Both the position numbers and the translations under genes were made by a program. From Pelagibacteraceae bacterium AG-470-E16 (GTDB taxonomy: Bacteria > Pseudomonadota > Alphaproteobacteria > Pelagibacterales > Pelagibacteraceae), in assembly GCA_003209195.1 (NCBI GenBank), contig QCSF01000001.1:62001-126000 (forward strand): a stretch of 64,000 nucleotides of DNA, given 5' to 3'. Under the pieces are notes generated by a model. The model was given only the letters and a program-made list of their open reading frames with translations, had not been told where the DNA came from and searched no databases. Shown piece after piece: positions 32,701 to 46,665 of this stretch. The stretch's first letter is position 1, and each line of letters begins with the position of its first letter.

Positions 32701-32712
32701 AAAGTTTTATCA

Positions 32713-32809
32713 CGAGGAATTGATTAATAACCTGGAATATTAACGTTACGGCTGCTTTCTTTCGAATCTGACCGGATTAGCGCAACATCCACCTATTATC
32801 AATTCCCCA
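32713..32809 (-). ncRNA. ffs: Bacterial small SRP RNA (4.5S)
   Basis: Minus strand CCGGTCAGATTCGAAAGAAAGCAGCC matches the SRP apical-loop signature; terminal GGGGAATTGATAATA / TTATTAATCAATTCCTC stem; position upstream of dnaX. Confidence 0.92.
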
Positions 32810-43783: not shown

Positions 43784-44542
43784 ATGCCAAAGAAGACAAA
43801 GTCAAAAAATAAAATAAAAGATAAAAAAAAAGCTTCGAAAAAAGCTTCGAAAAAAACCTTTAAGAAAATAGTAAAAAAATCTTCAAAAAGTAAAATTAGG
43901 AAAGTAAAACCTAAAGAAAAAAATGTAAAAAAAAAAATCAAAGACAAGACTTCGTCTCAACAAAATTACATTAAGCAACAACAAAATGATGTTATTGAGA
44001 TAAAAAAAATTAAAAAGCAAGAAAGTGAAAAACGAGTATATAAAGTAAAAGATTATGTAATCTACCCGAAACATGGTATAGGACAGATAATTTCTATAGA
44101 TAAATTAACAATCGCAGGTATCGAAGCAAGTGTTTACAAAATTGAAATAACTAAGGATAAACTTAATTTAACTATACCAACAAATCAGCAGCAGCATTTG
44201 AGGCCTTTGTCTAGCTTAAACCAAGTAAACAAATCACTATCGATATTAAAAGGTAAAGCTAAAATAAAAAGAACCATGTGGAGTAGAAGGGCTGCTGAAT
44301 ATGAACAAAAAATTAATTCTGGAGATATATATCAAATATCTGAAGTAGTTAGAGATTTAAACAAAAACACTGATATGCCAATCGATCAATCATACAGTGA
44401 GAGACAATTGTTCGAAAAAGCTTACGATAGATTATTAGGTGAAGTATCGATAGTACTTAATATTTCAGAGGATGAAGGTAAGATTAGAATGAATAAATCT
44501 TTAGGAAAAAAAGTAGAAGAAAACACGCAAAATATTTCATAA
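43784..44542 (+). CDS. CarD-family transcriptional regulator with Lys-rich N-terminal extension
   Basis: KVKDYVIYPKHGIGQIISIDKLTIAG...TIPTNQQQHLRPLSS...MWSRRAAEYEQKINSGDIYQISEVVRDL. Confidence 0.93.
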   Translation: MPKKTKSKNKIKDKKKASKKASKKTFKKIVKKSSKSKIRKVKPKEKNVKKKIKDKTSSQQNYIKQQQNDVIEIKKIKKQESEKRVYKVKDYVIYPKHGIGQIISIDKLTIAGIEASVYKIEITKDKLNLTIPTNQQQHLRPLSSLNQVNKSLSILKGKAKIKRTMWSRRAAEYEQKINSGDIYQISEVVRDLNKNTDMPIDQSYSERQLFEKAYDRLLGEVSIVLNISEDEGKIRMNKSLGKKVEENTQNIS

Positions 44543-44543
44543 A

Positions 44544-44579
44544 AAAAAACGCCCTTCTAAACTAGAAGAGCGTTTTTTT
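44544..44579. terminator. Rho-independent terminator (possibly bidirectional) between CarD gene and convergent mini-ORF
   Basis: AAAAAAACGCCCTTCTAaactaGAAGAGCGTTTTTTT inverted repeat with A- and T-tracts. Confidence 0.85.
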
Positions 44580-44602: not shown

Positions 44603-44692
44603 TTATCTTTTCTTTTTCTTTTTCTTAGCTTTCTTTTTAGTCTTTTTTTTAGCTTTTTTAGCTTTTTTAGCTTTTTTTCTTCTTTTAGCCAT
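44603..44692 (-). CDS. 29-aa Lys/Ala-rich histone H1-like mini-protein
   Basis: Manual translation MAKRRKKAKKAKKAKKKTKKKAKKKKKKR-type ORF starting ATG GCT AAA AGA AGA; upstream AGGGAGG SD-like sequence (minus strand). Confidence 0.6.
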   Translation of the reverse strand: MAKRRKKAKKAKKAKKKTKKKAKKKKKKR

Positions 44693-44888
44693 CTCCGTTC
44701 CTCCCTTTAAAGTTTGGAGCATCACATAAAAAATTACGTGATTCGTTCTTAAATTACTTAGAAACTAATTCGTTATTAATGTCAAACGTTTAAAATTTAC
44801 AAAATTTTTTTTAAAAAAATTTCAATTTAAAGTTTAAATATTTATAAAAATTTTTCATAAAAAAAGATAACATTTTCAATGTTTTTTA

Positions 44889-46580
44889 TTAATTTCTATA
44901 AAATTTTTCTATTATATTTTTATATTTTATTTTAATCTTATGTCTTCTAATTTTCATTGTAGGTGTTAATAATTCATTTTCTATTGTAAAGTCTTCTTTT
45001 ATAACTTGATATTTTTTAATTTTTTCAACTATTGTTAAATCATTGTTTGTTTGGTCAATTAATTTCTTTATTTTTTGGTTATCTAACTCAATATTTTTTT
45101 TGGTTACTATCAAACAAGATAAATATTTTTCATTATCTCCATGAACATAAGCTTGTTCAATTTCATCATGTAAACAGAGCATGTTTTCTATTTTTGAGGG
45201 AGAAACATTGTCACCTCCAATTGTAACAATAATATCTTTTTTTCTATCTGTTATTTTTAAATAACCGTCTTGATCTATTTCTCCAATATCACCTGTATAT
45301 AACCAATCATTTATTAATACTTTTTCAGTAGCCTCAGCATTTTTCCAATAACCCAGCATGACATTTTCACCTTTTACCAGAATTTCACCATCCTCTGATA
45401 TTTTTACGTCATTACTTGGAAAGATTTTTCCAACAGTCTCTATTTTAATATTTTTTACAGGATTACAAGAAACTACAGGTGACGTTTCTGTTAATCCGTA
45501 TCCCTGCAAGGTTTTTAAGCCCAATGCATTTAGAAATAAACCAACATTTTTATCAAGTGGTCCACCGCCAGATACGAAAGCTTTTAGGTTGCCTCCAAAA
45601 TTATTTACTACTTTTTTTCTCACTAATAAATCTAGTAACTTGTTAATTATTTTTTCTTTATAATTAAGTTCCTTTCCGAGAAAATTTTTTTCTCCTAATT
45701 CTAATGTTTTATAAAATAAGGTTTTTTTAAATTTTGATGATTTTTTTACGGATACTAACATCTTATTATATAAATTGTTATAAAATCTTGGTACTGCTGT
45801 CATGACATGGGGTTTGATAATTTTTATATTCTCAAGCAATTTTTCAATAATAGGTGAATAAAACACTTTAGCTCCAAGAGAAATCTGAACAAACTGCACT
45901 GTATGCTCATACGAGTGAGATAATGGTAGCCATGTTATAAACCTTGGATTTTTGACCTTTAACTCTTTTACTAAATTTTTTGCATCCTCACAATTAGCTA
46001 GAATACCTCCATGACTTAAAACCACTCCTTTAGGATGTCCTTGTGTACCCGAAGTATAGATTATACATGCAGGATCCTTTCTTGTGACAATGCATGCATC
46101 TTCATCTGTACTATTGCATTCAATTTTTTCAAAATTCTGTATATTTTGAATTTCATCAAAGCTGATAATAAAACTAAATTTATAATTTATCTTACGTGAC
46201 GCGTTTAAAATTATTTTTAAAAGTTTATCATTTGAGACAATTAATCCAATAGGCTCACAATCTTGCAATATGAATTCAAAATCCTTCTCAGTATAAGTAG
46301 TGTAATTTGGTACTGTTATCGCGCCATTTGCTAAAATAGCCAAATCACTGATCATCCACTCTGGCCTTCCTTCTGAAACAAGCATAACACGATCTCCTTG
46401 TTTTACTTTGTTTTTTCGAAGATATTTTGAAAAATTTTTTATTTTTTTATTGACTTCCAACCATGTTAAAGTGTCAATGCTTTTATCGCTATTGACTGAA
46501 TGTAAAAAATCATTTTTAAGATTTTTAGCACTTTGCTCTTGAAATAGTTCAAATAAATTATTTAATTTTTTAATTTTCAT
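44889..46580 (-). CDS. AMP-dependent synthetase/long-chain acyl-CoA ligase
   Basis: ACIIYTSGTQGHPKGVVLSHGG, GYGLTETSPVVSCNP, YTGDIGEIDQDGYLKITDRKKDIIV. Confidence 0.92.
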   Translation of the reverse strand: MKIKKLNNLFELFQEQSAKNLKNDFLHSVNSDKSIDTLTWLEVNKKIKNFSKYLRKNKVKQGDRVMLVSEGRPEWMISDLAILANGAITVPNYTTYTEKDFEFILQDCEPIGLIVSNDKLLKIILNASRKINYKFSFIISFDEIQNIQNFEKIECNSTDEDACIVTRKDPACIIYTSGTQGHPKGVVLSHGGILANCEDAKNLVKELKVKNPRFITWLPLSHSYEHTVQFVQISLGAKVFYSPIIEKLLENIKIIKPHVMTAVPRFYNNLYNKMLVSVKKSSKFKKTLFYKTLELGEKNFLGKELNYKEKIINKLLDLLVRKKVVNNFGGNLKAFVSGGGPLDKNVGLFLNALGLKTLQGYGLTETSPVVSCNPVKNIKIETVGKIFPSNDVKISEDGEILVKGENVMLGYWKNAEATEKVLINDWLYTGDIGEIDQDGYLKITDRKKDIIVTIGGDNVSPSKIENMLCLHDEIEQAYVHGDNEKYLSCLIVTKKNIELDNQKIKKLIDQTNNDLTIVEKIKKYQVIKEDFTIENELLTPTMKIRRHKIKIKYKNIIEKFYRN

Positions 46581-46582
46581 AT

Positions 46583-46665
46583 TGGTGGGCGAAAAGGGAG
46601 TCGAACCCTTATGGTTTCCCGGCGGATTTTGAGTCCGCTGCGTCTACCAATTCCGCCATTCGCCC
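46583..46665 (-). tRNA. tRNA-Leu (anticodon CAA), CCA encoded
   Basis: Minus strand GGGCGAATGGCGGAATTGGTAGACGCAGCGGACTCAAAATCCGCCGGGAAACCATAAGGGTTCGACTCCCTTTTCGCCCACCA; anticodon loop CTCAAAA. Confidence 0.96.

Follow-up and report, generated by a model that had tools for sequence, protein, structure and literature searches.

Does the 29-codon, lysine- and alanine-rich open reading frame (ORF) beside carD encode a protein, and, if it does, what might so basic a peptide with so structured a leader do? The locus was examined in the window, meaning the whole 64,000-nucleotide stretch of DNA analysed, and compared with its counterparts across SAR11.

The gene and its setting in the window

The original prediction placed a 29-amino acid mini-protein on the minus strand behind the Shine–Dalgarno (SD) sequence AGGGAGG, and both elements were confirmed. 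The ORF (44603..44692, minus strand) begins with ATG at 44692-44690, runs for 29 codons and ends with TAA at 44605-44603, giving the peptide MAKRRKKAKKAKKAKKKTKKKAKKKKKKR. The SD lies at 44700..44706 (minus strand), and its GGGAG is conserved in nearly all relatives. An ORF-finding tool lists the locus as a 40-amino acid extension with a GTG start at 44725. That start and the ATG at 44722 were rejected because the extension upstream of 44692 is unconserved; the conserved start is the ATG at 44692. ATG-started ORFs of at least 19 amino acids with at least 60% Lys+Arg number one in the window and zero in 80 simulated windows (40 order-1 and 40 order-2 Markov).

The convergent neighbour is carD (43784..44542, plus strand), recognised by a domain search (CarD_TRCF_RID and CarD_C). 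The proposed tail-to-tail arrangement with a Lys-rich carD across a terminator is indeed present, the lysines of CarD being found mainly in the N-terminal tail. The two genes have in common a predicted bidirectional intrinsic terminator at about 44541..44579, which folds on either strand (z = -5.8 and -6.7). Upstream on the same strand, a gene for an AMP-binding acyl-CoA ligase (44889..46580, minus strand; ORF list and domain search) ends before the microprotein promoter. Elsewhere in the window are a bacterial small SRP RNA (32711-32808, minus strand) and a tRNA gene (46586-46665, minus strand).

CarD itself deserves a remark. The N-terminal tails of the SAR11 CarD proteins compared are long (44-150 amino acids; 43784-43990, plus strand, in the window) and Lys-rich; among the other alphaproteobacterial CarD proteins, the Micavibrio type has a milder version. 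A separate protein of 352-357 amino acids with a very Lys-rich N-terminal third occurs at an unrelated locus in two genomes of the same genus (G006 and G001; L017, L028).

The predicted promoter comprises a -35 element, TTGACA (44780..44785, minus strand), conserved across SAR11 by leader comparison, and a weak -10 element, TCTAAG (44757..44762, minus strand), set at a 17-bp spacing and without a T at -7. Transcription of the microprotein gene would start at about 44750. Between this point and the SD lies a stem-loop, ATCACGTAA-TTTT-TTATGTGAT (44721..44742, minus strand), seen in the predicted fold and covarying in subclade III. Its arms, at 44742-44734 and 44729-44721, form nine pairs, of which one is G-U on the minus-strand RNA, exactly as had been proposed.

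Distribution and coding character across SAR11

All eight genomes of the window's genus carry the microprotein ORF convergent with carD, and the locus DNA of the seven relatives is 76-84% identical to that of the window. With carD as anchor, two families were covered. In every SAR11 carD locus whose downstream flank is readable over more than about 80 nt, a Lys/Arg-rich ORF lies opposite carD, 34-70 bp from its stop codon. Automatic detection yielded 132 loci, some genomes being represented twice, with 102 distinct leader-plus-protein sequences. Two further loci were recognised by eye: one with a GTG start (L071), the other with an apparent one-base frameshift near the C-terminus (L100). SAR11 genomes without a carD match are also without the microprotein leader, an observation that does not bear on whether either depends on the other. 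A feature limited to one genus was considered and rejected: the exact SD-start string had matched only genera g1 and g8 in a family-wide scan, and carD synteny revealed an order-wide family.

Outside SAR11, no such ORF was seen at the carD loci of the other Alphaproteobacteria examined, most of which lead into a same-strand phosphatase-like gene. The hairpin-plus-SD pattern, a weak one that misses many SAR11 forms, was found outside SAR11 in one of 380 alphaproteobacterial genomes, where the match is due to chance and no Lys-rich ORF accompanies it. On comparative grounds, the microprotein gene is real, overlooked and SAR11-wide, since every checkable SAR11 genome has the same arrangement. The idea of a genuine mini-protein with a structured leader is thus strongly supported: the short-ORF search in relatives proposed as a check finds ORF and leader hairpin both conserved across SAR11, as are promoter spacing and synteny.

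Two assemblies carry the locus twice. One metagenome-assembled genome (G003) has carD–microprotein loci on contig C29 (L056/L104) and contig C3 (L040/L106). The C29 copy, near a contig end, has a genus-type carD and terminator, but its leader and peptide (CGAATCACTTTGATTCG, MATRRKAKK...) are of the type found in g4; the cause may be a chimeric contig, mixed strains or recombination within the repeats. In G035 (contig C6, 5048-8497), carD and the microprotein gene occur twice in an identical inverted repeat, probably an assembly artefact.

The encoded proteins vary in length far more than in composition. They measure 19-58 amino acids in the Pelagibacteraceae (family 1) and 40-99 in the sister family, f2. 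Within family 1, forms of 19-25 amino acids such as MAKRRKKAKKKKAKKRRRRRR characterise genera g2, g3, g5, g7 and part of g4 (probably Pelagibacter), the remainder of g4 having 25-35; the window's genus has 29-38, and g12 has 34-58 with AAKKKAPAKK. Lys+Arg averages 73% in family 1, and 20 of the 22 residues of one peptide (L079) are Lys or Arg. Composition is dominated by K (51-52%) and A (17-24%), then P and T, and repeat number differs between relatives. Beyond M-A/P-K-K/R and a basic end, almost no residues are fixed. The f2 proteins consist of Ala/Lys/Pro repeats of the AAPKKKKKAAKRKPAKK type (MEELKVIFAKAKKKAKKKAAPKKKKKAAKRKPAKK...) and resemble histone H1 tails.

Codon usage bears on whether these ORFs are translated. 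Under neutrality, 41% of single-base changes are expected to lead out of the K, R, A, T, P, S, G, V alphabet and about 20% to be synonymous; among 64 distinct family-1 proteins, no residue outside that alphabet occurs. Codon differences between near relatives, in counts uncorrected for shared ancestry, comprise 144 synonymous and 116 nonsynonymous changes, with K/R the commonest amino-acid exchange. Conserved Arg codons switch among AGA, CGT and CGA, and Lys is written AAA or AAG. Viewed across relatives, this pattern of codons shows that the peptide is under selection. The sequence is A-rich, and the conserved hairpin and terminator could bracket a small RNA, so that a spurious ORF over a structured non-coding RNA has to be weighed. 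It is very improbable in view of the synonymous codon exchange, the absence of disallowed residues, the conserved SD-ATG and stop, and the lack of any such ORF in simulation; a purely non-coding RNA was rejected on the codon evidence.

A conserved stem-loop near the predicted mRNA 5′ end

The leader keeps one order across SAR11: TTGACA, 31-36 nt, CGAATCA opening the stem-loop, then the SD. The near-invariant motif CGAATCA (44739..44745, minus strand, in the window) belongs to the 5′ arm, and CGAATC is present in every leader analysed. In 130 of 131 loci it lies 31-36 nt downstream of TTGAC(A/T), the sole exception being a second TTGAC match. The -10 element is weak and stands 15-19 bp, mostly 17 bp, from the -35. 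From this spacing and the predicted -10, we infer that the hairpin lies within a few bases of the mRNA 5′ end. In most genera the predicted -10 (44757-44785, minus strand, in the window, with its -35) has no T at -7, a kind of element that, according to a proposal for Alphaproteobacteria (PMC8407463), requires CarD; the microprotein gene may itself be CarD-dependent.

In most of the genomes searched, the pattern TTGAC-N28-38-CGAATCA has a single occurrence, at the microprotein locus. A general regulon was rejected on this single-locus pattern, the extra f2 matches belonging to a different recurring TTGACTATATATAGTAG sequence. This second sequence, TTGACTATATATAGTAG...ACGAATCA, lies away from carD in many f2 genomes (for example G405:C16:1028, G402:C8:21876, L243-L246, L250 and L251).

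Comparison establishes the leader as a conserved RNA stem-loop. The 5′ arm is near-invariant and the 3′ arm follows changes. In subclade III, which includes the window, the stem is extended inward, with U-A/A-U and A-U/G-C exchanges; in f2 the stem shows an A-U/C-G exchange, and a second hairpin before the SD shows C-G/G-C. In both groups the covariation score is matched by none of 500 shuffles and also exceeds all slid controls. Group A, the largest lineage group, has G-C/G-U and A-U/G-U/G-C exchanges, and its covariation does not rise above shuffles because the hairpin is so conserved there. On the CarD tree, two separate lineages (L078, L157) have changed A-U to G-C, and at least two have replaced G-C by G-U at one pair. 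Core pairs 8/25 and 6/27 hold 35 G-U cells in the sense RNA and no A-C. The covariation check proposed at the outset yields compensatory double changes in subclade III and f2, and the G-U pairs of the stem fit only the minus-strand RNA.

The same evidence bears on an alternative in which CGAATCA-N3-5-TGATTCG is a DNA operator, bound by a dimeric regulator where transcription begins. The sequence is a near-perfect DNA palindrome in many genomes, and the half-site CGAATCA is near-invariant and stands at a fixed distance from the -35. Nevertheless, RNA is favoured over a DNA palindrome because, where half-sites diverge, the core pairs of the sense RNA turn into G-U rather than A-C. A simple operator is further disfavoured because the spacing from ATCA to TGA(T) widens to about 14-18 nt in subclade III, where inward extension with double changes keeps the RNA paired. 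An operator in place of an RNA hairpin is thus quite unlikely; the conserved 5′ arm could also serve as a DNA site.

A role for the RNA leader in hiding the SD had also been proposed, through pairing of CTCC with GGAG. The CTCC arm (44716..44719, minus strand) is invariant in the subclade III genera g1, g8 and g12, where occlusion stands as a conserved option. It is missing from most other genera, including g2-g5 and g7, and for this reason SD occlusion is not a general mechanism. The predicted fold of the window leader RNA (-15.3 kcal/mol, z = -3.1) pairs CTCC with a second GGAG adjoining the ATG (44693..44696, minus strand; kept in g1 and g8) and not with the SD itself. Where both are present, modelled pairing of CTCC with GGAG could mask the SD. 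Family f2 has an analogous anti-SD arrangement of CUC/GAG plus CCC/GGG; this fold, which shows one double change, would likewise mask the SD in the model. Besides the CGAATCA hairpin, f2 leaders (L117-L133, L178-L193) carry a nearly invariant AACCTCTAACTAAACCC...GGGGGGAG element before the start codon.

Rfam covariance models assign no family above the gathering threshold to the leader, and it is not among the candidates of a 2009 survey that covered structured RNAs of SAR11 (PMC2704228). Like the rpsB, rpsL and ffh motifs and SAM-V of that survey (Meyer et al. 2009), it is a structured, cis-acting 5′ leader conserved in SAR11; it differs in being a simple stem-loop, placed at what is predicted to be the 5′ end, and in preceding a microprotein.

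What the polycation may do

Searches of Pfam, NCBIfam and PHROGs gave the microprotein no match at E <= 1, with the proviso that low-complexity bias correction may hide one, and phmmer found no PDB chain at E <= 10, solved ribosomal chains included. A full-text literature search, with most subscription journals outside its scope, found no paper describing the SAR11 microprotein. Because no profile or PDB chain matches, likeness to histone H1 or protamines rests on composition. A sequence this basic and of such low complexity would not fold into a globular domain. Polyanion binding is the natural reading, as hydrophobic residues are almost absent, repeat number drifts and a specific fold is unlikely. 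Of the nucleoid or ribosome-binding role first proposed, composition and the H1-tail-like long forms of the sister family together make the nucleic-acid-binding part, whether of DNA or of RNA, the best reading. The gene thus probably encodes a minimal H1-tail- or protamine-like protein that, by its composition, would bind polyanions, made from a short stem-loop-capped mRNA.

Bacterial histone H1-like proteins, such as chlamydial Hc2 and Pseudomonas AlgP with its C-terminal KPAA repeats, are similar in their low-complexity Lys/Ala(/Pro) repeats and in length variation through repeat number. Hc2 varies by lysine-rich pentamers (PMC2848022), and AlgP KPAA tail peptides bind DNA (PMC9239181); by analogy, polyanion binding would be expected of the microprotein too. 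It differs in size (19-99 versus 165-350 amino acids), in its extreme Lys+Arg content, in lacking a structured domain or Pfam match, in its conserved hairpin leader and in its confinement to SAR11 in our survey. The f2 proteins appear to bridge the gap between the 20-mers and the H1-like proteins. Protamines are very short, mostly Arg/Lys and without a hydrophobic core, and in these respects the SAR11 microprotein is like them; it is unlike them in being a bacterial, Lys-dominated protein of growing cells, with shortest forms higher in K+R, and the likeness is one of composition.

Other functions can be weighed against this one. A small basic ribosomal or ribosome-binding protein comparable to bTHX, bS22/mS38 or eL41, embedded in rRNA and with the leader as an autoregulatory element, would fit the universal presence, the 19-32 amino acids and extreme Lys/Arg content found in most SAR11 genera, and a structured 5′ leader in kind like ribosomal-protein autoregulation; leaders of this kind have been described in SAR11 for rpsB, rpsL and ffh (PMC2704228). 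It is nonetheless unlikely, given a length that ranges from 19 to 99 amino acids by repeat gain and loss, few fixed residues, and no match among PDB chains or Pfam families. Ribosomal proteins of such size are known to retain specific residues. A polybasic translation-arrest leader, also raised in the original prediction, would need a downstream gene to control and is scarcely credible. Lysine runs can slow ribosomes, but no same-strand gene follows the ORF ahead of the terminator, carD is convergent, no arrest motif is conserved, and free drift in repeat number and length (19-99 amino acids) is unlike an arrest motif.

The constant neighbour suggests a further role, in which the peptide would serve as a disordered basic tail provided in trans and would act with CarD and RNA polymerase at promoters. 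The convergent pairing with carD is invariant across SAR11, and the SAR11 CarD tails compared are Lys-rich (32-45% K+R), a feature missing from five of eight other alphaproteobacterial CarD proteins. There is a precedent in Myxococcus, where a histone H1 C-terminal region can substitute for the basic tail of CarD (PMC8156234). The HMGA/H1-like tail of M. xanthus CarD is likewise a basic disordered element tied to a CarD-family protein (PMC8156234), but the SAR11 peptide has a convergent gene of its own, no AT-hook motif was seen in it, and its link to CarD is one of neighbourhood. Neighbourhood is a weak argument in streamlined genomes, the two genes have separate promoters and convergent transcription, and SAR11 CarD already has a basic tail of its own. 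We accordingly give a CarD partnership little credence.

For the polyanion-binding protein, the following course may be envisaged. A SAR11-wide single-gene transcription unit would encode a minimal polycation, its own promoter (TTGACA and a weak -10) giving an mRNA of about 200 nt. This mRNA would carry the conserved CGAATCA stem-loop at its predicted 5′ end and finish at the bidirectional terminator common with carD. The peptide would most likely bind polyanions by charge, chromosomal DNA first and possibly RNA, ribosomes or polyphosphate, and the stem-loop would most likely protect the mRNA 5′ end or receive a regulator. In some lineages the anti-SD arm may add translational control. A bolder version is rather unlikely as a whole: an unreported, possibly essential SAR11 polycation, from 19-22 residues upward and up to about 90% Lys+Arg, would compact the AT-rich chromosome or tune CarD/RNA polymerase, with the CGAATCA arm of its stem-loop-capped mRNA acting as a homeostatic sensor, for example by binding the peptide.

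SAR11 cells are among the most abundant cell groups in the ocean, and their genomes are streamlined. That every readable genome keeps the microprotein gene, with its promoter spacing, hairpin and neighbour, means that it is probably important. It is also easily missed, falling under the usual length for gene calling, being masked by BLAST low-complexity filters and yielding tryptic fragments too small for proteomics. As a candidate for a chromosomal or RNA-binding protein in bacteria, the microprotein would be unusual in being so small and so basic, and it offers a concrete locus at which to study DNA packing and the working of CarD in SAR11.
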